NCBI GenBank assembly: GCA_025150425.1
Contig: CP102281.1
Span: forward strand, 62,001-126,000
Direction: 5' to 3'
Length of the DNA stretch: 64,000 nt
Source of the DNA: [Eubacterium] siraeum
GTDB lineage: Bacteria > Bacillota > Clostridia > Oscillospirales > Ruminococcaceae
Shown here: in pieces, positions 2,824 to 49,818 of the stretch
Numbering within the stretch: the stretch's first letter is position 1
Layout of the letters: each line of letters begins with the position of its first letter
The notes under the pieces: model-generated
Database searches by the model: none
Told to the model about the DNA's origin: nothing
What the model saw: the letters and a program-made list of their open reading frames with translations, nothing else
Program-made: the position numbers and the translations under genes

Positions 2824-2983
2824 ACGCACTATCCCTCGAAAAGCACCATCACACTTGCCTCCCTTGTCAAAGTGAGGTGGATTGACGGCAAGGCACAAGC
2901 CTTGATTTTATTGCTTTCTGCTTGCGATATGTCCACCCTTTTTATGCTGCAAACTTTTCTGCCGTCAAGACGGAGGGATTGCC
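2824..2983 (+). repeat. Long-range-stem module, TTGACGGCA version
   Basis: The left end is CGCACTATCCCTCG. A CCTCCCTT-type hairpin follows (imperfect here), then TTGACGGCA at 2882-2890, which pairs perfectly with TGCCGTCAA at 2960-2968 across about 70 bases. The right end is CGGAGGGATTGCC. The same arm sequence occurs at 17543/17621 and 44308/44385. Confidence 0.75.
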
Positions 2984-3045
2984 TCCCGTTGCACCGAATA
3001 TTGCTGCCTTCACAACCATTGCAAAAGGACAACACACCCTCGCTC

Positions 3046-3121
3046 CGCACTAAACTTGCCTCGCCAAAGGTGAACTTCTGTTGCTCGGTCAAGCCGAGCC
3101 AACTACAGTGGGGATTGTAGT
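3046..3121 (-). repeat. Bulged-G hairpin module, CTCGG version
   Basis: Read on the minus strand, 3080-3103 is GTTG, an unpaired G, CTCGG, a 5-nt loop, CCGAG, CAAC. On the plus strand it is preceded by TCGCTCCGCAC and followed by GTGGGGATTG. Copies with the same helix are at 17728-17751 and 32951-32974. Confidence 0.7.
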
Positions 3122-3315
3122 TGCTTAGAAGTTGTTTCCCTAATCGCTTTGGTTCTTGTTCTTTCCCTCGTTAATATTGACAAGTGCATCGATTTGAATA
3201 GCGAACCCGAGAAGTGCTGTCCGACAAACAGAACTATCGGTAGCTTGCTATCATAGTTAAATACTAAAAGATATAACAGAAGCACATTAAACAAAAGACT
3301 ATTTATACAAGCAAA

Positions 3316-3344
3316 ACGGAGCATATCTTCCTGATATGCTCCGT
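3316..3344. terminator. Terminator-like hairpin, copy 2 of an identical pair
   Basis: The 29 bases are identical to 2646-2674, including the asymmetric TTCCT loop. Flanking bases extend the stem (GCAAA on the left, TTTGC on the right, one base bulged). It lies 17 bases beyond the stop of the minus-strand mannanase gene and probably serves as its terminator. Confidence 0.8.
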
Positions 3345-3361
3345 TTGCTGTTATTATGCTT

Positions 3362-6300
3362 TTATTTTGCGTTTGTCACAGCGGCAAGTCTTGTGTAGTT
3401 GCTGTAGATGACTGTGTCGCCTGAGGTCTTGTATGCTCTTATGCGGAATGTGTAGGTCGCACCTGCCTTAAGGTCGCCCGCTATAAAGCCTACTGTATTA
3501 TTTGTGCAGGTTCTTAATGCTTCCGTCCATTTGCCGCCCCTGTACAGTTCAACGATATATCCTTCTGCGGAGTTGTTCATTGCCCAGCCTATTATAAGCT
3601 CGGATGATGTCGCTGAGATTTTTCTGAAGGATGTAACGTTTGAAACGCCTGAGCTTTCCACTGTTTTAGCGGCAAGTCTTACATAGTCGCTGTACTGTAC
3701 AGATCCGCCGGATGTCTTGTACGCTCTTATACGGAAGGTATATGTCGAGTTAGCGTTAAGTCCTTTAGCCGTACAACTTGCGGAGTTGCCTTTATATATC
3801 TCGTTCCACTTGCCGCCCTTGTATATTTCAACCGAGTAGCCGTCAGCCTTGCTGTTTGCTGCCCAGCCGAGTGTAACAGAATTTGCGGTTGCGGATCTAC
3901 AGGTGAATGATGTAACGGGGCTCAGTACGGATGAATCTGCCGTTTTAGCGGCAAGTCTTGTGTAGTTGCTGTAATACGTTGTATCGCCCGAGGTCTTGTA
4001 TGCTCTTATACGGAATGAGTAGGTCGAGGAATCTTTAAGTCCTGTAGCTGTACAACTTGCGGAGTTGCCGTTATATATCTCGTTCCACTTGCCGCCCTTG
4101 TATATTTCAACCGAGTAGCCGTCAGCCTTGCTGTTCTTGTTCCACGCAAGAGTGAGCGATGAATCGGTTGCGTTTGTGCTTGTGAAGCCTGTGACATTAT
4201 CAACCGTAGTATCATCTGTTACCGAGGAATTGATAACGGTGAGAGTAAATGTGTCTGTAGTGCTGTCGCTGAAATGATATACTATTTCGTGTTTGCCGTT
4301 GGAGAGGGTCTTCATGAACGGCGTGTTGAGTGCCACCTGACTTCCGCTCCATGAGTAGTCTGTACTGCTGTCAAGCGTTTTGCCGCCGCAGGTTATCTTT
4401 GATATAGTCTGACCGTTCAGCACGAGCTTTGTAAGTACAGTTGCAGGAGCAGAGCCGTCAAATGTGCCTGTCTTGTTGATAAGGTGTGCGCCCTCGGCTT
4501 CCTGCTTTTCGCCGTAGAAGTATACATCATCAATTATGTAAGCGCCTGTGTCGGTGTTACCGCCATTGCCTGCATAGAATGCGACCTGTACAATACCCGT
4601 TGTGTCAAGTGTAGCGGATTCTGACTGCCAGCTTGGAGCGATAAATTCCTCGAAAGGTATCTCAAATGTTTTTTCGCCGGAGAAGTTGACCGTTATTTGT
4701 TTTTCAAAATAGTTGTTGTTCTTATCCCTGAGCTGAATAGTAAAGCTGTTACCGCTGTTGTCGCCGGTAAGGTTTATGCTGACACCCGTGTAATTTGCAA
4801 CGTTACGCTGTGACAGCGTGCGGTTTACACCGCAGTATCCGTTGGGCGAGCCTACATTGTACTCAAATTTCATCGCTTTGCCGTTTGCGTTGTCAACAAG
4901 CGAAACCGTTACGTCGTTTCCGCTTGTATTCATCGTGTATGCACTGCTTAACTGAGAATCGCCTGTGTAGCTTTCAAAAGTATCTATATCCTCAAGTGCC
5001 GATGTATCTGTTACGGTAAGCATGAATTCACAATCCGCACCCTCATAGAAGTCGAACACGAGCGTTACGTTGCCCTCGCTGAGAGATTTTATAAAGCTGT
5101 CTGAGAATGTGACTAAGCCGCCGTTATCTGTATAATCCGTACCTGCCTTGAGATATTTGCCGTTTACCGTTATACCTCTGAATTCGCTTGTCTTCTTGTC
5201 ATAGCCTACATTCACCTTCTTGTAGTGACGCAGGTTCTTGTCAACTGTAGCGATATATTTATCAAGCGTCGGTGCGGGGATCGATACATCGGTTACGTTT
5301 ACTGTGAACTTCGGGCTGCTGCCTGCCGTACAGTTAAGCGTGAACACATGGTTTTTAAGCTCAAGTGTTTTAAGATAGCTTGCCTTTATAGTTACGGAGT
5401 TATTGTTTATCGTGAAGTCCTTACCTTCTGTAAGCGCATTTCCGTCAAGGGTTATACCGCTTATTGCACCCTCCTTCATAGTTGCTGTTACCGTAAGGTC
5501 GCTATTGTCCGCTCTGTCGAAGCTCAGCTTGTCGTTTACTATCGTGTTGACGTTATTCTTTGCCGTCATATTTGCGGCGTGCTTCATAATAAGCTGCCTT
5601 GTGCTTTCGGTCTCTGTTCCCTCCGGACCGTAAACGGTATACTGGTCATAGTCGGGATAAAGTGCGCCGTCAATGTATGAGGCTATCATCCAGTAGTTTG
5701 TGCCTGCATATTCGACCGTATCGTAGACATTACCTTCAAGCACCTCAAACCACTGCTTATACTCACTGTCACGGATTGTTCTATCTGTAAGACCGAACTC
5801 TTCGAGTATAACGGGCTTGTCAAGCTCCGCACAGGTTTCGCCGTGTATCTTAAACCAGAGCAGATCGTCCTGTCCTGTGCCTGTGTGCTTCATTCCCCAC
5901 TGATCGAGATAAAGATGAGGAGTACCGAAGTCGAGCGTGTCGATTGTCATCAGTTTTTCAAAGTCAACGCCCTCTGCACCGTAAAAGGCATAATTGGATG
6001 TAGTATATTCGTCGTAATACCCGTAAGGTTTATTGTAAAAGCCCTCGTCGCCGAGCGATACCATGTGATTCGGATCGATGCTCTTTACATATTCGCTCAT
6101 TTCCTTTGCCCAGTTATAAAGTATATTGTCCTTACACTGAGCGTCGGAACTGCATCTCGGCTCGTTTGAAAGCTCCCACGCAAATACGGAAGGCTCATCC
6201 TTCAGCTTTCTGTTTGTATACGGGTTCGTATGGTTCAGCAGACCGTTGACATAATCCTTATACCAGCCCTTGAGCGTTTCGTTTGTGTAGAAGTCGTCTT

Positions 6301-6883
6301 TTTTAAGTCCGGTTATGCCAAGCTCCTCTGCCCACTTGACGTATTGACCCATACCGCCGAAAGCATCCCAGTAGTTAGTAAAGGTGATAAGCAGCTTTAT
6401 ACCGTGCTTTTCTGCCTGATATAATGCGTAGTCGAGCTTCTTTATGCCGTCTTCACCGAAGTTTGTTACCGGCTTACCCAGAGCCTTGTCGAAATACTGA
6501 AAATATATTCCGTCCTTTTCGCCCGGGCCGTCATTGTTGTTTGTAAATACCGGCTTTCCTTCGCTGTCTGTCGTACCTGTCTTGACACCTACATCAAGGT
6601 TGCCCCAGACTCTGATAACTTTCAGCCCCATCGCCTCTGCGTCTTTGAATACGTTGTCTACCGCCTCCTGCGATTTGAACGTAAGGTAGTAGCAGTTTGT
6701 GCCTGCGTAGTAGAACGGGCTTCCGTCAAGCATGAATCTTGTTCCCTGCGCATACGCAAATCCGCTCGGAACACCCTCAGCCGCCGCACCCGTGCTTATG
6801 AAAAACACGGATACAGGTAAAGCTGTAAGCGTCATCGCCGTGGCAAGCGCCGAGCTTGCCAGTTTTTTCTTAAAACCTGTCAT
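3362..6883 (-). CDS. Secreted GH5 endo-beta-mannanase with X2, CBM and FN3 modules
   Basis: This 1173-residue protein has a signal peptide at about residues 1-36. A GH5 catalytic domain (about 40-440) follows and resembles GH5 subfamily 7 mannanases, which cut beta-1,4-mannan internally. E241 in WELSNEP is the expected acid/base and E362 in VILEEFG the nucleophile. Next come two X2-type beta modules (about 445-635), a CBM11-like jelly-roll (about 640-800), a third X2 (about 805-890) and three FN3 units (about 895-1173), each with GGKW. I see no dockerin, S-layer or LPXTG motif, so attachment is unclear. An AAGGAG site precedes the ATG. The mannanase call rests on motif resemblance, and a related GH5 specificity is possible. 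Confidence 0.88.
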   Translation of the reverse strand: MTGFKKKLASSALATAMTLTALPVSVFFISTGAAAEGVPSGFAYAQGTRFMLDGSPFYYAGTNCYYLTFKSQEAVDNVFKDAEAMGLKVIRVWGNLDVGVKTGTTDSEGKPVFTNNNDGPGEKDGIYFQYFDKALGKPVTNFGEDGIKKLDYALYQAEKHGIKLLITFTNYWDAFGGMGQYVKWAEELGITGLKKDDFYTNETLKGWYKDYVNGLLNHTNPYTNRKLKDEPSVFAWELSNEPRCSSDAQCKDNILYNWAKEMSEYVKSIDPNHMVSLGDEGFYNKPYGYYDEYTTSNYAFYGAEGVDFEKLMTIDTLDFGTPHLYLDQWGMKHTGTGQDDLLWFKIHGETCAELDKPVILEEFGLTDRTIRDSEYKQWFEVLEGNVYDTVEYAGTNYWMIASYIDGALYPDYDQYTVYGPEGTETESTRQLIMKHAANMTAKNNVNTIVNDKLSFDRADNSDLTVTATMKEGAISGITLDGNALTEGKDFTINNNSVTIKASYLKTLELKNHVFTLNCTAGSSPKFTVNVTDVSIPAPTLDKYIATVDKNLRHYKKVNVGYDKKTSEFRGITVNGKYLKAGTDYTDNGGLVTFSDSFIKSLSEGNVTLVFDFYEGADCEFMLTVTDTSALEDIDTFESYTGDSQLSSAYTMNTSGNDVTVSLVDNANGKAMKFEYNVGSPNGYCGVNRTLSQRNVANYTGVSINLTGDNSGNSFTIQLRDKNNNYFEKQITVNFSGEKTFEIPFEEFIAPSWQSESATLDTTGIVQVAFYAGNGGNTDTGAYIIDDVYFYGEKQEAEGAHLINKTGTFDGSAPATVLTKLVLNGQTISKITCGGKTLDSSTDYSWSGSQVALNTPFMKTLSNGKHEIVYHFSDSTTDTFTLTVINSSVTDDTTVDNVTGFTSTNATDSSLTLAWNKNSKADGYSVEIYKGGKWNEIYNGNSASCTATGLKDSSTYSFRIRAYKTSGDTTYYSNYTRLAAKTADSSVLSPVTSFTCRSATANSVTLGWAANSKADGYSVEIYKGGKWNEIYKGNSASCTAKGLNANSTYTFRIRAYKTSGGSVQYSDYVRLAAKTVESSGVSNVTSFRKISATSSELIIGWAMNNSAEGYIVELYRGGKWTEALRTCTNNTVGFIAGDLKAGATYTFRIRAYKTSGDTVIYSNYTRLAAVTNAK

Positions 6884-6941
6884 GATTTCACTCCTTCTGC
6901 TATTATTCTGATATAGCCTCCTGGTTTCTTAGCTTAACTTT

Positions 6942-6971
6942 ATAATATCATGCAACTTTATTTGAAGTCAA
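6942..6971 (-). promoter_or_regulatory. Sigma-A promoter of the mannanase gene
   Basis: On the minus strand TTGACT (6966-6971) is separated by 18 bases from TATTAT (6942-6947), placing the start about 50 bases ahead of the ATG at 6883. Confidence 0.6.
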
Positions 6972-7227
6972 CAGATTTAGCTAAATTTACTTAACAAAGC
7001 TGATTTTTTCGGTGGATTTCACAACAGTTCGAAGTGTTATATGTGTATTTAATACAATTTAAAGTAGTATTTACACAAAATTTCGCCAAAACGATACTTA
7101 AATAACGGCTTTATCGGTCAGTTAGTCTGTTTTTTAGTTGCTTAATGTAACGTTTCATGAAACTAACGAAATTTACATTTATTAGTTAAGTTAAAAAGAG
7201 GGAAACGGCTGTGTAACAGACAAAAAA

Positions 7228-7258
7228 ACGAGCGGCGGTTCATAAAACCGTCGCTCGT
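7228..7258 (-). terminator. Terminator of the LRR/FN3 surface protein gene
   Basis: A 13-bp stem (ACGAGCGACGGTT / AACCGCCGCTCGT, minus strand, one mismatch) with a short loop is followed by seven T. It starts 13 bases past the stop at 7271. Confidence 0.9.
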
Positions 7259-7270
7259 AAAGCCGTGATA

Positions 7271-10200
7271 TTATTTTGTTGTCTGCACCGTTCTTACATT
7301 ATCACTGTATATTGTCGAACCGTTTACGGTAAGATATGCTCTTACACGGAAGGTATATGACGTACCTGCCTTAAGATTCGTTATCTGGCAGGAGGTGACT
7401 GTGTTTGAGGTGGTTTTTGTTACAAGATTCCATTTCCCACCCTTATAGATCTCTACGATATATCCTGTTGCACAGCTTTTTCTTGCCCACGAAAACCGGA
7501 TTGATGAAGCTGTGCTGTTTGACTGCTCCCCAAGCTTTGCAACGGGGTTAAGACCTGTTGTAGCGGAGCTTTTCAGATATTCGCTGAATACGGTTCTGCC
7601 GTTTTTCACCTTGTAGCTTTTTATGCGTACAGAATAGGTCGAGCCTTCCGCAAGACCTGTTATCTTACAGGAAAGCTTTGTGTTCGAGGTTGCACACAGC
7701 ACCTGCTCCCATTTTCCGCCCCTGTAGATTTCTACTGTATATCCGTCGGCTGCAGCATTCCTTTTCCAGCTGAGAGTTATCTGTGAAGCGGAATCCGCTT
7801 TATATGTAAGGCTTGTAACGTTGGGTATACGGGTGTCGGCTGAGAACGTAAGATAATCGCTGAAATATGTGGTTGCTGTTGTCTTCCTGAAGGACTTTAT
7901 GCGCACTGAATATGTTGCATTTGCCGAAAGCCCTGTTGCTGTGCAGGTAAGGGTTGTGTTGCTTTTTGCGTTTAAAATCTGCGTCCACTTACCGCCCTTG
8001 TAAATCTCAACGATATAGCCTGTAGCGGCGGTATTCTTATTCCACGAGAATGTTATTGATGATGCTGTATTGCCGGAAGCCTTGAAGCCTGTAACGTTTG
8101 CTATCCTTGTGTTCACGTCAGCTTCAAGGTATTCGCTGAATGAGTACGCACCGTTTGTAAGGCGGTAGCACTTGATACGGGCTTTATATGTTGAGCCTGC
8201 CGCAAGACCCGTTACCTTGCAGGAAAGAGCAGTGTTGTTCTTTGTGGTAAGGACTGTATTCCACTTTCCGCCCTTATAGATTTCAACGACATATCCCGTG
8301 GCCGAAGCAACCTTGTTCCACGAAAGTGTAACAGAAGAAACGGTTGATGACTTCGCCGTAAGACCTGAAACACACGCAATTCTTGTAGTTGCCGCAATAT
8401 TCGTATAATCGCTGCAGACAACAACACTGCCTGTTTTCTTGTATGACTTCATGCGGAATGAATAGCGTGTTTCGGGAGCGAGTGAGGACGCTGTACATTG
8501 TAAGGTCGTGTTGCCTGTTGTCTTTAGAATCTGAGTCCATTTTCCGCCCTTGTACTGCTCAATGATATAGCCTGTGGCATCGGCATTCTTATCCCATTTG
8601 AGCGTTATTGTCCTGCTTGTTGTCTGAGGAGCTGTGAACGAGGCTGTATTTGGCAAAGCGGTAGTCGCAACGGCTCTTGTGTAACCGCCGTACTGAACGG
8701 TAGAACCTGACACTTTACGCAGTCTTACACGGAATGTATAGGATGTACCGGGAGTAAGATTTGTGACGGTGAGAGCGCAATTGGCACTGCTGTCGGTCTT
8801 GGAAATCCGTACCCATTTGCCGCCCTTGTACTGCTCGACCTCATAGCCGCTGCCATCGGTTGACATTGACCACTCGAGCGTTATGAATTTTGGGTTTTGA
8901 CGGGTTACTTTGAGGTTCTTGACATAGCCGAGAACGAGAATATCGGTGTAGTCGGACTTGTAGGAATAGCCGCAAACCGAGCATTTATGCAGGGTGTAGC
9001 CCTTTGCGTCATAGGTCGCATCGACCACGGTATCAACGTATTTATGACCCAACGGATCAAGCTCTCTTGTAAGCACCTTGCCGCAGACCGTGCAGCTGCA
9101 CCGTTGCTCACCGGGTTTAGTACAGTCGGGATTTTTGGTTGTTTTCCAGGCGGTATAAGTATGGTTTCCTGTGGGGGAAACATATATTACATCTGTCTTT
9201 TTATCGCACTTCGTACAGTGGCGTGACTGCGAGCCTTGCTCGGCGCAGGTGGGCGCTTTGTCGAGCGTCCATGTCGATGAAAAGCTGTGTCCTGTGGCAT
9301 AAGTGGTATCTTCGGTTCTGTGGGAATTGCAGACCGTGCAACGGTAAGTTATACAGCCGTCATTTGTACAGGTTTCCGACTTTATTGCATCGACCTTATA
9401 GTCGTGATAAAGATTCGACTTCGGAATGGTATAAGTTTTCGACGAACCTGTTGAAAAATTGACTTTCAGTTCACCGTCACTTTCACAGGTGGGCTTTTTG
9501 GTAAACGTTCTGCCGGTCAATGTGCCTGATGTATCAACAAGCAGGTTTTGAATTTCGTCGTTGCCTGTAAGCTTCTGTGAAATCTCTCCATCCGGGCAGA
9601 TCACAAGTATGATTTCAGCCCAGTTGAAAGCATCATAGCTGAAAGAGGTCACAGAAGAGGGAATGTTGAGTGAAATCAGTTTTGTTGTCTGGAAGGCTCT
9701 GGATTCGACAGTGGTAAGTCCGTTACCCTCGATTATAACATTGCGTAAATTGTCGCAGGAGGCGAAAGCGGCATAGCTTATCTTCTTGACGGTTGCAGGG
9801 ATCGTGATATCAACTATATGGTCGTTTCCGCAGAATGCGTCGTCGCCGATAACTTCAACGAAGCTTGGGATTTTTGTCATTGACGAACCTGTGGCGGAAA
9901 CAAGCGTTTTGCCGTCCTTAGAGTAAAGGTCGCCGTTTATAGCCTGAAAATACTTGTTGTTGCTGTCAACAGTGAATTTAAGACAGTTGTTTCCCGAGAA
10001 TACATCGGCGGCTATAGTCTTTACCGAGCTTGAAATAGAAATGCTCTGTATGCGTTTTGTGTAAACGAAAGCGCCACGCTTGATCTCGGTAACGGTATTG
10101 GGTATGGTTACCTTTGAAACACCGATACAGCCTCTGGTAAACTCTGCTGCTATTACCTCTATCTTGTGACCGTCGATATATCCGGGGATATTCATAACGG

Positions 10201-10840
10201 TCTTGGTAGCCTTGTCATAGCCTTTTACCTCATCGTCAAACTGTATCCACGAATAAACAGCGTATTTGTTTTTTGAAATCTCTTTATAAAGGAATCGTGA
10301 ATTCAACTTCTGTGAAATGAAAGTTTTCTGACCGAGTACGTCGCCGCCGATATAAAGCAGATAAACCGAGCCGTCACCGAGCCTTACCGCAGTGGTCGCC
10401 ATAGATGTGGCTGTTTTCATAGGTATCTCTTCATTTTCACTGTACGCATATCTTGTTTTTGCGGTCAGACCTACCTCACCCAGCATATAAACGGCAAGTT
10501 TTGCGCTGGCATAATCGCTGCCTGAACCGTTCAGCACCATAAGATACGGATCGGAATTGCTCTTGTCGTAAGTGAACGATGCCACATACGCCGCAACCTT
10601 ATCCATCTTGGAAACGTCCGCAATGCCGTTGGGTATGTTCTTGGCGATATAGTCGGCGATTATCTGCTGTGCCTGCTCACGCTGTGCTTTTGTTGCGCTG
10701 ACAGAAGCGATGCTGACATCTTCCGTCATCACGTCGGATACTTCGGGAACATAGCTGTTTGCCGATACAGCAACAGCCGAGAGCGATACAATAACCGCAA
10801 CAGACGCTATCACCGCCGGTATTTTCTTGAAAATGTTCAT
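7271..10840 (-). CDS. Secreted LRR_5 / Cys-repeat / FN3 surface protein with degenerate transglutaminase-like N-domain
   Basis: This 1189-residue protein has a signal peptide (about 1-28). A region at about 50-190 resembles a transglutaminase core, but the GxCxxYA motif reads GSGSDYA near 105-111, so the catalytic Cys appears lost. BspA-type leucine-rich repeats (LRR_5) follow at about 210-425 (units such as VTIPNTVTEIKRGAF). At about 450-615 there are repeats of the form PTC...G...CxxC...GH. The C-terminus holds six FN3 units, each with GGKW. BspA-like LRRs often mediate adhesion; here that is inference. No anchor motif is visible. It lies between the alpha/beta hydrolase gene and the mannanase gene. 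Confidence 0.82.
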   Translation of the reverse strand: MNIFKKIPAVIASVAVIVSLSAVAVSANSYVPEVSDVMTEDVSIASVSATKAQREQAQQIIADYIAKNIPNGIADVSKMDKVAAYVASFTYDKSNSDPYLMVLNGSGSDYASAKLAVYMLGEVGLTAKTRYAYSENEEIPMKTATSMATTAVRLGDGSVYLLYIGGDVLGQKTFISQKLNSRFLYKEISKNKYAVYSWIQFDDEVKGYDKATKTVMNIPGYIDGHKIEVIAAEFTRGCIGVSKVTIPNTVTEIKRGAFVYTKRIQSISISSSVKTIAADVFSGNNCLKFTVDSNNKYFQAINGDLYSKDGKTLVSATGSSMTKIPSFVEVIGDDAFCGNDHIVDITIPATVKKISYAAFASCDNLRNVIIEGNGLTTVESRAFQTTKLISLNIPSSVTSFSYDAFNWAEIILVICPDGEISQKLTGNDEIQNLLVDTSGTLTGRTFTKKPTCESDGELKVNFSTGSSKTYTIPKSNLYHDYKVDAIKSETCTNDGCITYRCTVCNSHRTEDTTYATGHSFSSTWTLDKAPTCAEQGSQSRHCTKCDKKTDVIYVSPTGNHTYTAWKTTKNPDCTKPGEQRCSCTVCGKVLTRELDPLGHKYVDTVVDATYDAKGYTLHKCSVCGYSYKSDYTDILVLGYVKNLKVTRQNPKFITLEWSMSTDGSGYEVEQYKGGKWVRISKTDSSANCALTVTNLTPGTSYTFRVRLRKVSGSTVQYGGYTRAVATTALPNTASFTAPQTTSRTITLKWDKNADATGYIIEQYKGGKWTQILKTTGNTTLQCTASSLAPETRYSFRMKSYKKTGSVVVCSDYTNIAATTRIACVSGLTAKSSTVSSVTLSWNKVASATGYVVEIYKGGKWNTVLTTKNNTALSCKVTGLAAGSTYKARIKCYRLTNGAYSFSEYLEADVNTRIANVTGFKASGNTASSITFSWNKNTAATGYIVEIYKGGKWTQILNAKSNTTLTCTATGLSANATYSVRIKSFRKTTATTYFSDYLTFSADTRIPNVTSLTYKADSASQITLSWKRNAAADGYTVEIYRGGKWEQVLCATSNTKLSCKITGLAEGSTYSVRIKSYKVKNGRTVFSEYLKSSATTGLNPVAKLGEQSNSTASSIRFSWARKSCATGYIVEIYKGGKWNLVTKTTSNTVTSCQITNLKAGTSYTFRVRAYLTVNGSTIYSDNVRTVQTTK

Positions 10841-17310: not shown

Positions 17311-17343
17311 AAAGGCGGTACTCATTATACGGGTACCGCCTTT
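17311..17343 (+). terminator. Terminator of mnmE
   Basis: An 11-bp perfect stem AAAGGCGGTAC / GTACCGCCTTT with an 11-base loop starts 8 bases past the stop. A close relative in the same orientation lies at 17814-17844, on the other side of repeat copy B. Confidence 0.85.
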
Positions 17344-17488
17344 CAGTTTGCCGAAAAAACCATTTTTATTAAAGCTACACAGTGAAATATATCGCCAACA
17401 CCGCTTAAAATACTTCCCTTGCCGATAAGGCATTAATAATTTCGTGAGTGTATCAGTGCAACTGCTCTGACATTGACCTTTTTAAAAA

Positions 17489-17643
17489 CGCACTATCCAT
17501 CGCTTCGCACTAAACTTGCCTCCCTTGTCAAAGGGAGGTGGATTGACGGCAAGCCACAAGCTGTTGCTTTGTTGCTTTCTGCTTGCGATATGCCCACCCT
17601 TTTTATATTGCAAACTTTTCTGCCGTCAAGACGGAGGGATTGC
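17489..17643 (+). repeat. Long-range-stem module, TTGACGGCA version
   Basis: A perfect 8-bp hairpin CCTCCCTT / AAGGGAGG (17519-17538, loop GTCA) is followed by TTGACGGCA (17543-17551), which pairs with TGCCGTCAA (17621-17629). The right end is ACGGAGGGATTGC. Confidence 0.8.
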
Positions 17644-17669
17644 TTTACACCACCAACCCTCCCAAAAAC

Positions 17670-17770
17670 CGCACTATCCCTCGCCTTGCACCACCACACT
17701 TTCCCCCTCGAAAAAGGGTGAGGTTCTGTTGCTCGGTCAAACCGAGCCAACTAAGGTGGGGATTGCAATT
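17670..17770 (-). repeat. Bulged-G hairpin module, CTCGG version
   Basis: The core at 17728-17751 reads, on the minus strand, GTTG-G-CTCGG-TTTGA-CCGAG-CAAC. The left end on the plus strand is CGCACTATCCCTCG and the right end GTGGGGATTGC. Confidence 0.7.
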
Positions 17771-17813
17771 GCTTAGAAGTTGTTTTCCTGATCCCTTTTT
17801 TCCACATAAACTG

Positions 17814-17844
17814 AAAGGCGGCACTCAATACAAGTACCGCCTTT
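17814..17844 (-). terminator. Terminator of the NSS transporter gene
   Basis: The arms AAAGGCGGCAC / GTACCGCCTTT (one C-A mismatch) enclose a 9-base loop, 12 bases past the transporter stop. It resembles 17311-17343 in both arms and in the ACTCA start of the loop. Confidence 0.75.
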
Positions 17845-32537: not shown

Positions 32538-32771
32538 AAACAGATGTAATTATACTAAAAGAAATAAGCAGTCACGCAATTCCCCTCTCTCCGTCCAACC
32601 CTTCCAAAACCGCACTATCCCTTGCTTTGCACCATCACGCTTGCCTTATGAACGCTCCGTTTGTTTTGCATCCGCACTATCCCACCCACTTTTCGTAGGG
32701 CGAGGTTCTATGTATAATTGTACGGTTTCACATTTGAACTATCCCACCCACTTTTCGTAGGGTGAGCGTCT

Positions 32772-32839
32772 GTGTGTGCTTAGTTGGCTTTGCGTCCTTG
32801 CAAAGCCCTTGGGCACACACGCTAAGGCATCCTTGCCTT
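32772..32839 (+). repeat. Three-stem module, GTGTGTGC version
   Basis: Outer GTGTGTGC / GCACACAC (32772-32779, 32813-32820), inner GGCTTTGC / GCAAAGCC (32786-32793, 32800-32807), third AAGGCA / TGCCTT (32824-32839). It is identical to the copy at 44580-44647. Confidence 0.8.
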
Positions 32840-32909
32840 GCTTGCCCCTCCCGTTGCATCGACCCTCTCCATCCCCACAACCATTGTAAAAGGACAACAC
32901 ACCCTCGCT

Positions 32910-32990
32910 CCGCACTAAACTTGCCTCCCCTCGAAAAAGGGTGAGGTTCTGTTGCTCGGTCAAGCCGAGCCAACTATGGTGGGGATTGAA
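32910..32990 (-). repeat. Bulged-G hairpin module, CTCGG version
   Basis: The core 32951-32974 has the same helix as the copies at 3080 and 17728. The right end is GTGGGGATTG. Confidence 0.65.
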
Positions 32991-33348
32991 TTTGATAGAA
33001 CTTCTATCCTTAAAACTTCAAAGCATTCGCTCTGCCACAATTCGCACTGCACCAACCCTTCCAAAACCGCACTATCCCACCTGCTTTTCGTAGGGCGAGG
33101 TTCTATGTATAATTGTACGGTTTCACATTTGAACTATCCCACCCACTTTTCGTAGGGGAGCGGGCTTGCCCCTCCCGTTGCATCCAACCTTTCCATCCTC
33201 ACAACCATTGTAAAAGGACAATAATCCCTTTGCCTTGCACTATCACCCTTGCCTTTTAATGAACGCTCTGCCGGTTTCGCATCCGCACTATCCCTCGCCC
33301 TGCACCACCACACTTGCCTCTCTTGTCAAAGGTGAGGTGCTGTCGCCC

Positions 33349-33449
33349 TCTTGATTACCGAACAGCAAAGACGGGCGGGGCTGTCAACGGCGGCGCATTT
33401 CCGCCGTTCATCTTGACCGTTGGCAGGCTCGGCTGGGTTTGCTATCTGC
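33349..33449. other. Junction sequence between repeat cluster C and the anti-sigma gene
   Basis: From 33349 the sequence no longer resembles the repeats. It is GC-rich and contains the hairpin AACGGCGG / CCGCCGTT (about 33387-33409) nested in GTCAA / TTGAC arms. It could be the end of an acquired segment. I cannot name the source. Confidence 0.4.
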
Positions 33450-34154
33450 TCACGGCAATTCACTCTCATTGATAGGAATTGCTTCAAGCTCCTTATTCAA
33501 ATTGTTCCAATAAGAGCCAATATCCGCACTTGTGAAATACTTAAAACCGCCTGCTTCTGACTTCAATTCGCCGTTTTTAACTCCATAGCAGGCGTAAATC
33601 AAATCGTAGCTTGTTCCATCTGAGAGGTTAAATCTAAAGCCGGTCACATCTGCTCCGGCAGTTTCCTCAGTTGTTTTGTCTTTTAAGGATAAGCCCTTGA
33701 ACTTATCATACAGGGTCTTTATATCACTTTCAGCAACAACTACTTTCTTTTCTGCTGATGCAGGCACTCCGTCATAGTGGTACATTTCAACGCTTTCGAC
33801 ATCTTCAACCTCAAATGGGAAGTCGATTTTGACAGGCTCATAAGCAATGTTTATAGGTAACATAAAGAGAGCTGTAAAAATTGCAATGATACAAAGAGCG
33901 ATGGAAACGAGAACAGCAATCGTTATCTTTTTTCTGCCTCTCTGCTTTTCTTTTGCCTCATGGCGCATAATAACGCTTTCGCTTTCTTCGTGAAGAACAT
34001 CTTCGTTCGTGTGAGAAAGCAATTTCTGATAAATTGCGTTACAGTCAGCACAGGCGTTCAAATGCTCTTTTACCATCTCTGCGCTTGCTTCGCTGCAAGC
34101 ACCGTCAACATACAGCGGAAGAATATCTCGAACAATATCGCACTGTTTACTCAT
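33450..34154 (-). CDS. Anti-sigma factor with zf-HC2 domain
   Basis: This 234-residue protein has an N-terminal zinc-binding anti-sigma domain with the HC2 pattern H....C..C (HLNACADCNAIYQ) after CDIVRDILPLYVDG. A basic linker, one membrane helix (about 75-100) and an extracytoplasmic domain of unknown fold follow. Such proteins hold an ECF sigma factor at the membrane until a signal arrives. The gene begins 4 bases after the stop of its partner sigma gene, and the pair has a lower GC content and more AT-ending codons than the surrounding genes. Confidence 0.88.
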   Translation of the reverse strand: MSKQCDIVRDILPLYVDGACSEASAEMVKEHLNACADCNAIYQKLLSHTNEDVLHEESESVIMRHEAKEKQRGRKKITIAVLVSIALCIIAIFTALFMLPINIAYEPVKIDFPFEVEDVESVEMYHYDGVPASAEKKVVVAESDIKTLYDKFKGLSLKDKTTEETAGADVTGFRFNLSDGTSYDLIYACYGVKNGELKSEAGGFKYFTSADIGSYWNNLNKELEAIPINESELP

Positions 34155-34158
34155 ACTT

Positions 34159-34632
34159 TTAATCCATCCTTTCTTGAATTTTTAGCTTTGCACGATGATA
34201 AGTAACTCTCGCCCATGATTCTGTTTTTCCAAAAATTGCGGCGATTTGCGCAAAAGAGAGTTCACCGAATACGCGAAGCTGAAAGACTTCTTTGTATGGT
34301 TCTTCCAAACGGTGAAGAACGAGGTGTATGCGGAACGCCATGTCAGAATCTGCAACTGAGTTCTCAACATTTTCATTTGATGGCAAGTCATTGATTTCAC
34401 TCACATCAGCTACTCGCTGACGGCTTCGCATTTCATCATGGTAAAGATTTTTTGCTATGGAGCAGAGCCATGTCAATTCATCTGACTTACCTTTGAATTG
34501 TGATGTTGTAGAAACAGCCTTATAGAATGTGTTCTGCGTGATTTCCTCTGCTATCTCACGATTTTTGGCAAGAGAAATAGTATACGAGTATACCTGTAAA
34601 TAGTAGGCTTTATAGAGCTTTTCATAGTCCAT
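34159..34632 (-). CDS. ECF-type RNA polymerase sigma factor
   Basis: From the ATG at 34632 the product is 157 residues. That start is preferred because AAGGAGGTG lies 9 bases upstream, whereas the in-frame ATG at 34659 precedes that ribosome site. Region 2 is visible as YYLQVYSYTISLAKNREIAEEITQ followed by TWLCSIAKNLYHDEMR, and region 4 as EVFQLRVFGELSFAQIAAIFGKT-type helix-turn-helix ending SWARVTYHRAK. It directs transcription of an unknown regulon, probably including its own operon, and is controlled by the anti-sigma factor encoded next to it. Confidence 0.9.
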   Translation of the reverse strand: MDYEKLYKAYYLQVYSYTISLAKNREIAEEITQNTFYKAVSTTSQFKGKSDELTWLCSIAKNLYHDEMRSRQRVADVSEINDLPSNENVENSVADSDMAFRIHLVLHRLEEPYKEVFQLRVFGELSFAQIAAIFGKTESWARVTYHRAKLKIQERMD

Positions 34633-34659
34633 ACTTGTCATCACCTCCTTCAGCTTCAT

Positions 34660-35075: not shown

Positions 35076-35127
35076 CTTGATATAAATTAATGTAAAATTA
35101 AAGTATGCCGTCCGCCGGTAACGGAGT

Positions 35128-36525
35128 TTAAGCCGATCGCTGATCGTCAGAACGGCGAACAGTTTGCGGCGACTCGCCGCCGCTCGCCGTAAAGGCTTTG
35201 CCTTTTCTTATGTAGTAATTGTAGAAGAACAGATCTACAACCAGCGCAAGCACCCAGCCTACGGGCCACGACAGCCATATTCCGTCCGAGCCGAAGAACG
35301 GAGAGAGGATATAGGCGAAAATAACACGCAATGCAAGGTCAAGACAGGTGCTTATCATAAACGGCGTCATAACGCCGCAACCTCTTACACCGCCGTCAAT
35401 TACTATCTTTATGCAGACAAAGAAATAGAACGGGGAAACGATAGTCAGAAACTTACTGCCTGTTGCTATAATCTCCGCATTTGCTTGTGTCGCAAACAGG
35501 TTTACAAGCGTTCCGCCGAAAAGCAGGAAGCACACTACAAAAGGTATCGCTATAACAAGACACATCAGCATACCCGACTTCACACCCGTTTTAACACGGT
35601 CGGTCTTGTCTGCGCCTATGTTCTGCGCACAGAAATTAGACACGCTGTTTGAAAGCGTTGAGAAACAGGTTATTGCGAAAGTATTCAGCTTGATAGCAGA
35701 CGCATAACCGCCTATTACCGATGAACCGAAGCTGTTTACAAGACTTTGCACGAACAGATTTCCTACCGATACAAAACTGCTCTGTAATATTGACGGTATA
35801 GAAATACGGCTTATTTGCTTGAGTGCGTCAGAAGAGAATATTTTAGGCTTTTCGGGAGTATCCGACTGTATCTTTCCGACACGTCTTAAAAGCACGAAGA
35901 ACGCCGCAATACCTGCTGCACCCTGAGCGGCGAATGTAGCCCATGCAACGCCTGCGACGCCCATCTGAAATACTATTACAAACAGCAGGTCAAGCCCGAT
36001 ATTTCCGAGTGACGACGCTATCAGGAAGAACAACGGTGTTTTCGAGTCGCCGAGGGCGGTAAATATACCGTTGCAGGCGTTATAGATAAACAGAAACAGC
36101 AGTCCGAGTACATATACCCTCAGATATATGTCGCTGTCCGCAAATATATCATCCGGTGTGCCGAGCAATGTCAGCATCGGTGAACATAAGGCACAGCCTA
36201 TCACGGTAAGCACTCCGGCGATTGCCGCAAACGAAACCAGCGCCGTGTTTATCGCCGTTTTCATATATGTATAGTTCTTTGAACCGAAAAGTCGTGCAAC
36301 AACGACCGACGCACCGACGCTTCCGCCTGTTGCCACTGCCATGAATATCATTGTGACGGGGTAGCTTGCGCCTATTGCACCCAGCGCCATATCGCTTACA
36401 AAGTTGCCTGCAATAACGCTGTCAACAATGTTATAAAGCTGTTGAAATGCAACGCTGAGCAGCATCGGCAGAGAGAATTTCAGCAGAACGGAAAAGGTCC
36501 TGCCGCTAGTCATATCCGTGACCAT
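35128..36525 (-). CDS. MATE family efflux transporter
   Basis: This 465-residue, 12-helix antiporter of the multidrug and toxin extrusion family exports drugs or metabolites using sodium or proton gradients. The N-terminal block FSLPMLLSVAFQQLYNIVDSVIAG (described by its ends), FMAVATGGSVGASVVVARLFG and the pseudo-symmetric second half (ISIPSILQSSFVSVGNLFVQ) are typical. Its substrate is unknown. The start lies 18 bases from the ADP-ribosylglycohydrolase stop, so the two may share a transcript. Confidence 0.92.
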   Translation of the reverse strand: MVTDMTSGRTFSVLLKFSLPMLLSVAFQQLYNIVDSVIAGNFVSDMALGAIGASYPVTMIFMAVATGGSVGASVVVARLFGSKNYTYMKTAINTALVSFAAIAGVLTVIGCALCSPMLTLLGTPDDIFADSDIYLRVYVLGLLFLFIYNACNGIFTALGDSKTPLFFLIASSLGNIGLDLLFVIVFQMGVAGVAWATFAAQGAAGIAAFFVLLRRVGKIQSDTPEKPKIFSSDALKQISRISIPSILQSSFVSVGNLFVQSLVNSFGSSVIGGYASAIKLNTFAITCFSTLSNSVSNFCAQNIGADKTDRVKTGVKSGMLMCLVIAIPFVVCFLLFGGTLVNLFATQANAEIIATGSKFLTIVSPFYFFVCIKIVIDGGVRGCGVMTPFMISTCLDLALRVIFAYILSPFFGSDGIWLSWPVGWVLALVVDLFFYNYYIRKGKAFTASGGESPQTVRRSDDQRSA

Positions 36526-40450: not shown

Positions 40451-40455
40451 ATATC

Positions 40456-44013: not shown

Positions 44014-44110
44014 GCACTATTCCTCGAAAATCGCCAACACCCTTGCCCTCCCTTGTCAAAGGTGAGATGCTGTCGCCCGAAAAAATTCGGGCGACTACCG
44101 GAGGGATTGC
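44014..44110 (+). repeat. GTCGCCCGAA hairpin module
   Basis: A 10-bp perfect stem GTCGCCCGAA / TTCGGGCGAC (44072-44095, loop AAAA) sits between CTCCCTTGTCAAAGGTGAG and CCGGAGGGATTGC. Confidence 0.8.
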
Positions 44111-44150: not shown

Positions 44151-44230
44151 AACAATCCCTCAATAGTTGGCGGTGCTTCGCGCTGCAACAGAAGCTCACC
44201 TTTACACAAGGGTGCTAAAGGTGATAGTGC
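44151..44230 (+). repeat. Bulged-G hairpin module, CGGTG/CGCTG version
   Basis: The core 44166-44189 reads GTTG-G-CGGTG-CTTCG-CGCTG-CAAC. The whole module is inverted relative to its neighbours: AACAATCCCTC lies at its left and GATAGTGC at its right. Confidence 0.7.
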
Positions 44231-44249: not shown

Positions 44250-44407
44250 CCGCACTATCCCTCGAAAATCGCCAACACCCTTGCCTCCCTTGTCAAAGGG
44301 AGGTGGATTGACGGCAAGGCACAAACTGTCGCTTTGTTGCGTTTTGCTTGCGATACATCCGCCTTTTTTATTCACCAAACTTTTTGCCGTCAAGACGGAG
44401 GGATTGC
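44250..44407 (+). repeat. Long-range-stem module, TTGACGGCA version
   Basis: Hairpin CCTCCCTT / AAGGGAGG (44284-44303), then TTGACGGCA (44308-44316) pairing with TGCCGTCAA (44385-44393), right end CGGAGGGATTGC. Confidence 0.8.
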
Positions 44408-44437: not shown

Positions 44438-44503
44438 TGCCTCCCTTGTCAAAGGTGAGGTGCTGTCGCCCGAAAAAATTCGGGCGACTACCGGAGGGAT
44501 TGC
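44438..44503 (+). repeat. GTCGCCCGAA hairpin module
   Basis: Core 44465-44488, identical to the one at 44072, between GCCTCCCTTGTCAAAGGTGA and CCGGAGGGATTGC. Confidence 0.8.
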
Positions 44504-44579
44504 CTCACCACTATCCCTCGCTTGCACCAACCCTTCCAAAACCGCACTATCCCACCCACTTTTCGTAGGGTGAGCGTCT

Positions 44580-44647: not shown

Positions 44648-44829
44648 GCTTGCCCCTCCCGTTGCATCGACCCTTTCCATCCCCACAACCATTGCAAAAG
44701 GATAACAATCCCTCGCTCCGCACAAAGTCCTTGCCTTTCTTGCTTCTCTCATTACACCGACCCTTTCCATTCCCACAACCGTTGCAAAATCACAACCGCC
44801 CCTCGCCTCTCACCAACCCTTCCAAACCC

Positions 44830-44983
44830 GCACTATCCCACGCTTAGCACCACATTCTTGGCTCCCTTGCCAAAGGGAGCTGGATTGCGACAAGGCTATT
44901 TCTTATTATAAATCGCAACATTCTGCGATTTCATAAACGTTAATATTCGCTCAGCCCTATCTGTCGCAAGACTGAGGGATCGC
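44830..44983 (+). repeat. Long-range-stem module, TTGCGACA version
   Basis: Hairpin GCTCCCTT / AAGGGAGC (44861-44880, loop GCCA), TTGCGACA (44885-44892) pairing with TGTCGCAA (44962-44969), internal hairpin AAATCGCA / TGCGATTT (44910-44931), right end CTGAGGGATCGC. All three stems differ from the TTGACGGCA version yet pair perfectly. Confidence 0.8.
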
Positions 44984-45053
44984 CCACCAACCTTTCAATC
45001 CCCACAACCTTCTCAAAAGCACATCCCTTGCCTCGCACCACATTCTTGCCATA

Positions 45054-45118
45054 TGAACGCTCTGTTGGTTTCGCATCCTTGCGAAACTCTGGGCGTTCAA
45101 CTTCGGGCATCCATGCCC
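45054..45118 (+). repeat. Three-stem module, TGAACGC version
   Basis: Outer TGAACGC (45054-45060) / GCGTTCA (45093-45099), inner GTTTCGC (45068-45074) / GCGAAAC (45081-45087), third GGGCAT / ATGCCC (45105-45118). Truncated relatives lacking the closing arms are near 32650 and 33261. Confidence 0.8.
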
Positions 45119-45181
45119 GTCCCTTGTCAAAGGTGAGGTGCTGTCGCCCGAAAAAATTCGGGCGACTACCGGAGGGATAGC
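45119..45181 (+). repeat. GTCGCCCGAA hairpin module
   Basis: Core 45143-45166, joined directly to the three-stem module on its left. Right end CCGGAGGGATAGC. Confidence 0.78.
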
Positions 45182-45224
45182 TTTTCTACCGCACCCTTTC
45201 TGTTTCTCAGACACCTCCGTTAAC

Positions 45225-45297
45225 AATCCCTCAATAGTTGGCGGTGCTTCGCACTGCAACAGAAGCTCACCTTTACACAAGGGAGCTAAAGGTGATA
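45225..45297 (+). repeat. Bulged-G hairpin module, CGGTG/CACTG version
   Basis: The core 45237-45260 reads GTTG-G-CGGTG-CTTCG-CACTG-CAAC. Compared with the 44166 copy, one G in the right arm is A, turning a T-G pair into T-A. Confidence 0.7.
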
Positions 45298-45328
45298 CTG
45301 CTTTACTAACCCTTTTAAAAACCGCACT

Positions 45329-45475
45329 ATCCACTTGCTTTGCACCAACACCCTTGCCTCCCCTCGAAAAAGGGGAGGTGGCACGGCTGTAGAGTTTTTT
45401 CGCTTGCTGTACAGTATTCAGATAGTCCTGCTTTTACAATTCTGAAACTATTCCGAGCCGTGACGGAGGGGATTG
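45329..45475 (+). repeat. Long-range-stem module, CACGGCT version
   Basis: Hairpin CCTCCCCT / AGGGGAGG (45357-45378), CACGGCT (45382-45388) pairing with AGCCGTG (45456-45462), right end CGGAGGGGATTG. The extra C in the left hairpin is matched by an extra G in the right end. Confidence 0.78.
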
Positions 45476-45609
45476 TGAATACTTAGAAGCTTTTATGTTA
45501 GCACTCCTATCAATTTCAATTCCCTTCACCCCACACCAACCCTTCCACAACCTCACCCCTCAATTTCCCGTTATTCATCATCGAACATTCATTTCCTCCC
45601 TGTATACCC

Positions 45610-45638
45610 TTGACAACTTCCGCCGATAATTCTATAAT
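45610..45638 (+). promoter_or_regulatory. Sigma-A promoter of the AI-2E-family gene
   Basis: A perfect consensus, TTGACA-17-TATAAT, lies 40 bases before the ATG at 45679. Confidence 0.88.
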
Positions 45639-45678
45639 AAAAGCAGTAACTTCCATATCAATATAAAGGTGTGATGTA

Positions 45679-47085: not shown

Positions 47086-47130
47086 TGTTATTATTTCAGT
47101 CTGTCGAAAAACCTCTATCGTTGATAAAAA

Positions 47131-47232
47131 AGGGGTCGCAGGGGCGTAGCCCCCGACAGGGTCTAGGGGCGGTAGCCCCTGTAATATAGCCCCTTCCCAC
47201 GGGGAAGGGGTTTGGGGTTAAGGATAGAGAAT
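47131..47232 (-). repeat. GC-rich intergenic repeat G (no embedded module)
   Basis: Three hairpins occur in a row: GGGGC-GTA-GCCCC, AGGGGC-GGTA-GCCCCT and CCCCTTCCC-ACG-GGGAAGGGG. On the minus strand it matches 23131-23302 except for the block carrying the three-stem module, so it looks like the uninterrupted form. Confidence 0.75.
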
Positions 47233-47471
47233 TTGCTCTATTTTTATAAAAACAGACTTTTTCTACAAGCTGAATGTAATTATATGCCTTTTATTAAGGC
47301 GAAAAACACCGTGTTTTTAAAAACTACATTATTCATCACCCTGACGCATCATTGATGTCTTACTTTTCGTGATAGGTAAGCCATTCTGCATTTTCTGAAT
47401 CATCAGGTGTGATTGTAAATCAATGGCAGGGAGAAAAATACTCACCTGCCATTTTCTGAAAGGAAGTTTTT
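47233..47471. other. Intergenic leader of the nnr gene
   Basis: No gene is seen. It contains a small hairpin GCCTT-TTATT-AAGGC (about 47286-47300) that may end the AI-2E transcript, and a stronger hairpin AATGGCAGG / CCTGCCATT at 47422-47453 followed by TTTTC only a few bases before the ribosome site of nnr. The latter could act as a leader or attenuator structure. Confidence 0.45.
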
Positions 47472-48998: not shown

Positions 48999-49041
48999 CT
49001 CCTCACGTTGTCCTATATTACTTTATAAAGGACGACGTATT

Positions 49042-49587
49042 ATGAGTAAAAGAATGATTATCACGACAGCAGTTTTATCCTGCCTTTTATGCACATCCTG
49101 CACTGCCGCAGAAAAGGCGGAAATCCCCGACCTGAAGGGAGATATGAGCATCAGCGGCAGGGTCGCCTGCGACGGCGTTACGGCACAGGCAGAGTTTACC
49201 CGAAGTGCAGGTGTATGGACCGTATGCTTTACTTCGCCGGACAGCGTGAAGGGGCTTACCGTGACCGATGACGGCAACACCGTAAGGTACAGCCTTGACG
49301 GGATAGAGTATGAATACGGCAGTTCCTCGCCGCAGTTTGCCTCAGCCGCAGAGCTTCTCACACAGTGCATTGACAGTGCAGGAACAGCAGAAAACGTCAC
49401 CGCCCGTAAAGGTGCAGACAGGCTGACCTTAAGCGGCACGGCAGGCGATAGCAGCTATACGCTGACGCTTGACGGCAACGGCGAAATAACCGGAATTTCG
49501 GTCGGCGGATATACGCTTGACTGCTCGGGTAATCCCGCACCCGAAACCTCTGCGCCTGCTGTAGATGTGGGTAAATACTTAAAGTAA
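49042..49587 (+). CDS. Small lipoprotein of unknown function
   Basis: This 181-residue protein has a type II signal sequence ending in the lipobox CTSC (Cys about residue 19). The mature part is beta-rich, with blocks GDMSISGRVACDG and VKGLTVTDDGNTVRYSLDGIEY that resemble LolA/LppX-type lipid- or ligand-binding folds, but I do not assign a family. A strong terminator follows. Confidence 0.75.
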   Translation: MSKRMIITTAVLSCLLCTSCTAAEKAEIPDLKGDMSISGRVACDGVTAQAEFTRSAGVWTVCFTSPDSVKGLTVTDDGNTVRYSLDGIEYEYGSSSPQFASAAELLTQCIDSAGTAENVTARKGADRLTLSGTAGDSSYTLTLDGNGEITGISVGGYTLDCSGNPAPETSAPAVDVGKYLK

Positions 49588-49604
49588 AACCGGTATACAA
49601 GACC

Positions 49605-49643
49605 GAATCCCCATTGCCAAAACAGGCAGTGGGGATTCTTTTT
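49605..49643 (+). terminator. Terminator of the lipoprotein gene
   Basis: A 14-bp stem GAATCCCCATTGCC / GGCAGTGGGGATTC (one G-T pair) with a 6-base loop is followed by TTTTT. Confidence 0.92.
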
Positions 49644-49722
49644 ATGCTTTCCGATTCGGGTTAATTGTCGTCGTTGGGAAGTGTGATGAGAGGTTTATTG
49701 TAGTTGTGGGAAGGGTGGTGTA

Positions 49723-49818
49723 GCAATCCCTCCGGTAGTCGCCCGAATTCTTTCGGGCGACAGCACCTCACCTTTGACAAGGGAGGCAAGGGTGTTGGCG
49801 ATTTTCGAGGGATAGTGC
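49723..49818 (-). repeat. GTCGCCCGAA hairpin module, isolated copy E
   Basis: This is a single module, inverted relative to those in cluster D: GCAATCCCTCCGG at left, hairpin arms at 49738-49747 and 49752-49761 (loop AGAA on the minus strand instead of AAAA), GAGGGATAGTGCGG at right. It shows what one complete unit looks like when it stands alone. Confidence 0.78.

Follow-up and report, generated by a model that had tools for sequence, protein, structure and literature searches.

Short intergenic hairpins of the REP/BIME type are arranged in mosaics and often occur as inverted pairs. The repeats described here, from the genome of [Eubacterium] siraeum, resemble them in being short hairpins in mosaic between genes, often as inverted pairs, and differ from REP/BIME with RAYT in that the variable part is the hairpin itself, held within constant flanks. 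Our study is centered on a window of 64,000 nucleotides (bases 62001-126000 of a 2,694,742-base single-contig genome, CP102281.1), in which we analyzed modules made of a head hairpin CTCCCTTGTCAAAGG, a variable core, and a near-constant tail GGAGGGATTG, with about 45-125 nt per unit. We consider it probable that these modules are non-autonomous mosaic elements whose cassettes are exchanged by recombination and which are partly carried by terminator-targeting miniature inverted-repeat transposable elements (MITEs), hereafter referred to as carriers.

Three other systems are close to these elements. The BOX elements of Streptococcus pneumoniae (boxA-boxB(n)-boxC) are small repeats of modular build, in which constant ends enclose a variable interior; the part of the account used here states that they cluster, appear to insert into each other, and vary in length between strains (PMC3049150). 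Our modules share with BOX, as portrayed in that part, the constant ends and variable interior of their units, and are set apart from the description by their core: in BOX it is the copy number of boxB that varies, whereas in the modules an unrelated hairpin takes the place of the core. The BrickBuilt MITE of Porphyromonas gingivalis is built from leader and tail subunits with a repetitive interior; according to the available sections of its description, the inside contains a 23-nt minisatellite, 10 of 19 instances are predicted beside terminators or polyadenylation sites, and the target duplications vary, one example being a CT dinucleotide (PMC4596501). Compared with what those sections contain, the carrier differs in duplicating a whole hairpin. 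In the long-target-site-duplication (long-TSD) subgroup of the IS1202 family, the excerpted report gives unusually long target duplications of 16-28 bp, whose target could not be found, and outer ends 5'-TGT for the Acinetobacter members (PMC10132070). The carrier is similar to this subgroup, as the excerpt presents it, in having TGT near its ends, and is unlike it in that terminator targeting is not described for the subgroup in that excerpt (PMC10132070); its flanking repeats of 20-33 bp overlap the range given but exceed it. Among the matches listed from the open-licence literature, the titles and the beginnings of the abstracts contain no earlier description of the module sequences or of terminator duplication.

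Constant ends and interchangeable hairpin cores

A first-pass annotation of the window had described near-constant ends enclosing a hairpin (our core type T3, GTCGCCCGAA), a bulged-G hairpin (T4), or a long-range stem, and we located all these features in their places; the long-range stem modules do exist, but they do not form a single core class, being divided among three cores (T1, T2, and T5). Left ends similar to CGCACTATCCCTCG occur at 13 places in the window when up to two mismatches are allowed, and T1, T2, and T3 have in common a left extension with the consensus CCAAAACCGCACTATCCCTCGC..GCACCA.CAC.CTTGC together with a tail like GGAGGGATTG. Copies throughout the genome do share end sequence: the head CTCCCTTGTCAAAGG, with at most one mismatch, was found 40 times in E. 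siraeum (28 of them exact) and 0 times with the pattern reversed, and the T1 right end, with up to three mismatches, 23 times (0 in the control). Counted in the window and in the fetched loci of this genome, the core types amount to 20 T1, 7 T2, 14 T3, 6 T4 (including a fuzzy match inside an open reading frame (ORF) at window position 22514, probably due to chance), 2 T5, and 4 T6. A module may stand alone, in a row with others, or in an inverted tail-to-tail pair, and some modules are truncated or nested; the two antisense T6 modules in Table 1, each of which pairs tail-to-tail with a T3 module, had been missed by the first-pass annotation.

The same architecture is present in other organisms. 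We scanned a contig collection with one genome per species for the head, 12-42 free bases, and the tail, and identified 58 matching stretches from 14 further genomes (assigned by record prefix), mostly Clostridia-type metagenome-assembled genomes (MAGs). This set includes Gemmiger E37, Candidatus Gemmiger stercoripullorum, Clostridia RGIG1997, RGIG1827, and RGIG7205, other Clostridia, Clostridiales, and Oscillospiraceae MAGs, a Ruminococcus and a Eubacterium MAG, and single matches in MAGs labelled Bacteroides and Margulisiibacteriota. Together with E. siraeum, the 15 genomes contain 41 distinct cores between heads and tails that are identical over 15 and 10 bases, respectively; E. siraeum copies in overlapping loci may have been counted twice, which does not apply to the distinct cores. 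The scan pattern fixed the head and the tail but placed no constraint on the core, so the finding that cores form hairpins is independent of the search. The exact head has a patchy distribution, being present in 5 of the 71 genomes from the genus and in 9 of the 391 in a sample of the class (E. siraeum is included in both counts), and it is amplified in E. siraeum, with 28 exact copies versus 0 in a sister genome (G031) that nevertheless has T4- and T5-like modules. Within RGIG1997 alone, common ends enclose the different cores GGCACGAAGTGCC, GGCCTGAAAGGCC, and GCCCGAAGGGC.

Inverted pairing is also a general property. An inverted tail lies within 110 nt downstream of 53 of the 80 modules in the 14 other genomes, versus 0/80 in the reversed control; same-strand tails follow 5/80, and upstream inverted tails within 60 nt were found for 0/80. 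The spacing of the tail pair is nearly fixed in Gemmiger E37 (43-44 nt in 19/20) and in RGIG1997 (20-23 nt in 18/18) and variable in Candidatus G. stercoripullorum. Near modules of Candidatus G. stercoripullorum and Gemmiger E37 (loci L036, L041, L069, and L072), a separate hairpin repeat, GGGACGATGC...GCATCGTCCC, is also found repeatedly.

The cores differ in sequence and yet tend to fold. With one representative core per genome, the mean free energy is -9.5 kcal/mol, whereas chimeras that combine the cores of two genomes average -4.9; when each core is compared with shuffles of its own sequence, only 12 of 41 reach the best 1%. A looser head yields 77 distinct cores of 8-45 nt, with a mean longest perfect stem of 5.5 versus 3.2 in shuffles, and 42 of them are individually at or below 0.05. 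That the arms covary, as the first-pass annotation had anticipated, was confirmed in several groups of cores of the same length, the failure of one group being taken up below. The 14 distinct cores of 25 nt contain 15 double-sided changes versus 4.1 in shuffles (0/500 reach this number), the five of 16 nt contain 4 versus 1.0 (1/500), and the nine of 22 nt contain 5 versus 1.7 (2/500). In such groups, the compensating changes preserve the ability of the core to form a hairpin. Folded as single RNA strands, the window modules of types T3 (z -4.3) and T5 (z -3.5) are clearly better than shuffles, and those of types T1 (-0.9), T2 (-1.75), T4 (-0.55), and T6 (-0.9) are not.

Exchange at fixed loci and hairpin-duplicating carriers

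Orthologous gaps were compared between E. siraeum and three scaffolds from human faeces (Mexico), MT835489.1, MT835777.1, and MT835546.1. These are labelled Bacteriophage sp., but because of bacterial genes in the two checked for them (leucine--tRNA ligase and 6-phosphofructokinase) and their long matches to E. siraeum, at 95-98% identity, we treated them as bacterial sequences of the same species. Both presence/absence and in-place exchange of modules were observed. At 266.7 kb, beside the leucine--tRNA ligase gene, a T2 module in E. siraeum corresponds to a T3 module in MT835489, between flanks that are nearly identical on both sides, on the right from GGGATTGCTCCCTATCCGCACCAACCCTCCCAAA onward. 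At 483.5 kb, E. siraeum and MT835546 both have an element between copies of one hairpin, GAAATCCGACAGGGTGTTCCTGTCGGATTT; 272 bp comprising the right part of the element, a hairpin copy, and the flank are 98.5% identical, whereas the interior is 306 nt with T1 in E. siraeum and 410 nt with a T4-like module and T2 in MT835546. At 490.5 kb, a T3 module flanked by GTGCGG repeats in E. siraeum is absent from MT835546, whose record ends a few dozen bases farther on. T3 and T5 modules of MT835777 are located where E. siraeum contains a longer, different sequence and where there is a short gap in G031. Between strains, whole cassettes are thus swapped at a fixed locus (266.7 and 483.5 kb); homologous recombination or gene conversion, with dispersed copies that have the same constant ends as partners, is the most likely route.

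Comparisons with sister species point to gain and loss as well. G031 is about 77-92% identical to E. siraeum in the longer matches; the clusters at 2.7-3.2 and 17.4-17.8 kb of the window coincide with, or lie close to, the breakpoints of a segment that is inverted with respect to G031, where the corresponding junctions are without them, and the region of cluster C between flanking matches measures 2571 bp in the window, including ORFs at 33450-34659, and 256 bp in G031. In Gemmiger E37, a composite of modules occupies a gap of about 280 bp, versus about 30-95 bp in 11 aligned sister species; five of the 16 sister gaps were left unaligned (G498, about 956 bp; G470, 242; G471, 368; G472, 97; G478, at a contig end), and as three of these are longer, the short gap is not universal among the sisters. 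Carriage by phages was considered and rejected, since IMG/VR gave 0 matches and the Bacteriophage sp. scaffolds appear to be bacterial chromosome, other GenBank records with this label and module matches not having been checked gene by gene; carriage by plasmids was set aside as well, the module search having given no plasmid match.

The second component of the system is the carrier, a MITE-like repeat of about 510 bp (E. siraeum 484663-485179; L132:13364-13880) with 57 partial or full matches in E. siraeum and 30 in G031. Its ends flank modules, with the carrier middle absent, at window 2722-3309 and at 2138.8-2139.3 and 2159.0-2159.8 kb of the genome. In the window, elements A and B (Table 1) enclose module clusters A and B between duplicated hairpins, an arrangement missed by the first-pass annotation; as expected of a MITE, element A is overlapped by no ORF longer than 87 aa and the carrier is multicopy. 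Among 12 carrier elements compared, many ends have imperfect terminal inverted repeats of about CAGTCTGTCGAAAA, weak at several carriers (for example 2139, L188, and the right ends of 1380 and 2159). Many carriers have a direct copy of an entire hairpin on each side, and the hairpin differs from one carrier to the next. These flanking repeats measure 32 bp at element A, 33/31 bp (diverged) at element B, 33 bp at 483.5 and 1380 kb, 29 bp at 2159 kb, 31, 31, 26, and 26 bp at L188, L189, L192, and L193, and 24 bp at 484.66 kb. The last of these is a module-free carrier for which MT835546 has the empty site with a single copy of the sequence. A related 180-bp repeat has a 20-bp duplication at a filled site in G031, and the empty site, with one extra base, is found at window 917-937.

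The association with duplicated hairpins was evaluated with a hairpin-pair test, given that a strict inverted-repeat scan missed known carriers. A repeated flanking hairpin frames 8 of the 25 module clusters of E. siraeum, two of them in the window, versus 6 of 600 mismatched pairs. For the carriers themselves, the duplication is present in 13 of 28 chosen E. siraeum copies (12 without L227, which was counted on a module hairpin and not on a terminator), versus 4/1722; the 28 are the fuller copies among the 57 matches, some merged from two matches, and partial copies (L194, L195, L198, L236, and L237) were left out, the module-bearing ones being covered by the cluster test. Two side observations concern related repeats: a 180-nt intergenic repeat at window 47095-47274, with ends TTCAGTCTGTCGAAAAA / TTTTTCTACAAGCTGAA, has dozens of matches in G031 and G052, and one G031 copy is flanked by 20-bp copies of a palindrome that is single in the window (917-937); a 173-bp element with ends like those of the 180-nt repeat and a 32-bp hairpin duplication lies in locus L115, a region surrounding one of the Y1_Tnp genes of E. 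siraeum.

The duplicated hairpins resemble terminators. In a terminator scan, both copies at element A scored, in opposite directions, and at element B only the right copy did. Most of the examined pairs have an A-rich tract outside the left copy, a T-rich tract outside the right copy, and the element end inside, which is the pattern expected if a bidirectional terminator were split and its stem duplicated. The carrier, with its short imperfect terminal inverted repeats, would insert at intrinsic-terminator-like hairpins and leave a copy on each side (20 and 24 bp at the loci with empty sites, up to 33 bp judging from the flanking repeats), and some E. siraeum modules would travel in it as cargo. 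As the A- and T-rich tracts of most examined copies remain outside, each neighbor would retain a downstream hairpin with its T-tract across the element, so that the insertion may be harmless because both neighbors still have a terminator; since the T-tract hairpin for each of them is the far copy, the cargo may be transcribed. A putative transposase acting in trans would move the carrier. We put forward only tentatively the broader proposal of a two-level mobile system, in which a terminator-recognizing, hairpin-duplicating MITE founds permanent docking loci where constant-end cassettes are exchanged in place.

Table 1. Modules, carrier elements, and flanking hairpins in the window (window positions).
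Feature	Position	Strand	Remarks
Duplicated terminator hairpin, left copy (AACGGAGCATATC..GATATGCTCCGTTT)	2645-2676		Exact 32-bp direct repeat; terminator-like on minus, 13 pairs
Element A, 638-bp MITE-like carrier, ends CGGTCTGTCGATAAAC / TTGCTTGTATAAATAG	2677-3314		Holds T1 and T4
T1 module, long-range stem core GACGGCA...TGCCGTC	2858-2981	+	In element A
T4 module, bulged-G hairpin core, partly degraded head	3065-3117	+	In element A
Same hairpin, right copy	3315-3346		Terminator-like on plus
Duplicated, since diverged hairpin, left copy	17311-17343		No score in terminator scan
Element B, 470-bp carrier	17344-17813		Holds T1 and T4 modules
T1 module	17519-17642	+	In element B
T4 module, bulged-G hairpin core	17712-17765	+	In element B
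Diverged hairpin, right copy	17814-17844		Terminator-like on minus
Cluster C	32611-33352	+	Left ends, T4 module (32935-32988), and T3 ending after GTCGCCC (cut off)
T3 module, GTCGCCCGAA hairpin core	44047-44109	+	Fold z -4.3
T6 module	44153-44216	-	Tail-to-tail with T3 44047-44109
T1 module	44284-44406	+	
T3 module, GTCGCCCGAA hairpin core	44440-44502	+	
T5 module	44861-44982	+	Fold z -3.5
T3 module, GTCGCCCGAA hairpin core	45119-45180	+	
T6 module	45224-45287	-	Tail-to-tail with T3 45119-45180
T2 module, core CACGGC...GCCGTG	45357-45475	+	
T3 module, GTCGCCCGAA hairpin core	49724-49786	-	Left end 49806-49819

Apart from these features, the window contains large ORFs with 276-bp repeats at 3362-10840 and 49989-56827; the segment 3362-6883 matches fibronectin III, CBM_X2, CBM_11, and cellulase domains (Pfam), and nothing matching the block 3362-10840 was found at the syntenic position in G031. 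A 54-nt unit at 35106-35159 corresponds to a tandem array with four extra copies in G031.

Mobilization and alternative explanations

No transposase could be tied to the modules or to the carrier. The first-pass annotation had noted none in the window, and Pfam found none in the 10 window proteins scanned, out of 91 ORFs of at least 100 aa. E. siraeum has seven Y1_Tnp (IS200-like) genes, six of them with equal score, whereas the module-rich genomes of Gemmiger E37 (G460) and G411 and the module-bearing G463 have 0 matches, some genomes being possibly incomplete; RAYT mobilization was consequently rejected as a general cause, because Y1_Tnp is missing from several module-bearing genomes, a further difference from REP/BIME with RAYT. 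A longer, autonomous version of the module was also discarded: for 21 of the 23 T1 right ends, a head precedes at a distance of 101-103 nt with no gene in between, and no head is listed for the remaining two. No protein family was a recurrent neighbor of modules in more than five of the 14 other genomes compared, and none of the module neighbors was convincing as an accompanying gene family. By eye, no consistent target duplication surrounds the modules in the loci examined, the single GTGCGG repeat at 490.5 kb aside. The link between the carrier and IS1202-type transposases is a lead only, no search for that transposase having been made.

It is important to note that several results weigh against the proposal of recombining cassettes partly carried by MITEs, beginning with the lack of a transposase. 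The 24- and 26-nt core groups are weaker (49/500 and 43/500), the five distinct 19-nt cores have no compensating change, and the covariation shuffles ignore relatedness. The comparison strains are unverified metagenomic scaffolds, and it is from two loci that we infer recombination as the route of exchange. With respect to the carrier, both empty sites belong to module-free elements and none to a module-bearing one, two of the eight framed clusters are weaker (scores 16.0 and 17.5), the duplicated hairpins of L193 and 2159 have poor T-tracts, and only 1 of 14 carrier copies in G031 keeps the duplication. In E. siraeum, 17 of the 25 clusters are without a detectable hairpin frame, and in other genomes there is no frame enrichment (7/62 clusters versus 36/269 mismatched). 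These unframed clusters, here and in other genomes, imply that the carrier cannot be the sole way of spread.

Among the alternatives, we regard as unlikely that the modules themselves transpose, in the manner of a MITE or REP, with folded ends recognized by a transposase and strain differences produced by excision and re-insertion. Single modules with unrelated flanks in several genomes, the insert in Gemmiger E37, and the T3 between GTGCGG repeats at 490.5 kb would fit this explanation, as would the constancy of heads and tails across genomes, even though the exact pattern demanded it. However, at 483.5 kb the insertion is common to both strains and the interior alone differs, and the absence of a target duplication that looks consistent by eye, of an accompanying protein family, and of Y1_Tnp in three module-bearing genomes argues against it. 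From the first-pass annotation, a non-autonomous family with constant ends and a varying hairpin center is well supported by the copies throughout E. siraeum, the 14 other genomes, the covariation, and the strain exchange, whereas recognition of the module ends by a transposase is not, the best-defined mobile ends being those of the enclosing MITE-like element, from which most clusters are free. A further explanation, that the modules are non-coding debris, old repeats accumulated where insertions are tolerated and exchanged by general homologous recombination with no dedicated system, seems to us rather improbable. Truncated and nested modules, their position at or near rearrangement breakpoints with respect to G031, and the patchy copy number speak for debris, but heads and tails identical in 15 genomes despite different cores, together with the amplification in E. 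siraeum, point to recent spread.

The first-pass annotation had also considered a family of small structured RNAs, and we find it very improbable that the modules are such RNAs, or transcription terminators, kept by selection on RNA. The compensating changes in the cores and the strong folds of T3, T5, and one module of Gemmiger E37 are consistent with selection on RNA; in RGIG1997, A-rich bases outside the head mean that an outward reading gives a hairpin followed by T's; and the carrier T-tract stays with the far hairpin copy at most examined copies, so that the cargo may be transcribed. Nevertheless, template switching in quasi-palindromes, which acts at the DNA level, can likewise keep the arms complementary, Rfam gave 0 window matches at the gathering score, and T1, T2, T4, and T6 are without significant folding. 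Cluster D lies past the upstream gene's own terminator, and convergent gene gaps contain 25/86 modules versus 41/175 gaps, which is not clearly an enrichment in a test based on crude ORF calling (72 of 196 modules overlapped a predicted ORF). A terminator function of the modules was discarded, as the orientation of the flanking genes is near background. A G-quadruplex with a hairpin loop and integron attC sites were considered as well, on the sequence only.

Implications for intergenic evolution

Mosaic elements that exchange their cassettes and are partly carried by terminator-targeting MITEs would connect three subjects that are usually seen apart, namely mosaics of hairpin repeats, mobile elements that make long target duplications, and the role of terminators as insertion sites. 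Similar repeats have been a source of spurious ORFs in Clostridia databases, and repeats such as these may disturb gene prediction and assembly. Terminator hairpins are a possible target class for the long-TSD transposases that the excerpted report presents without a target (PMC10132070). If the proposal is true, it shows an element that settles between genes while both neighbors keep a terminator, and it shows how intergenic filler keeps changing in these bacteria.

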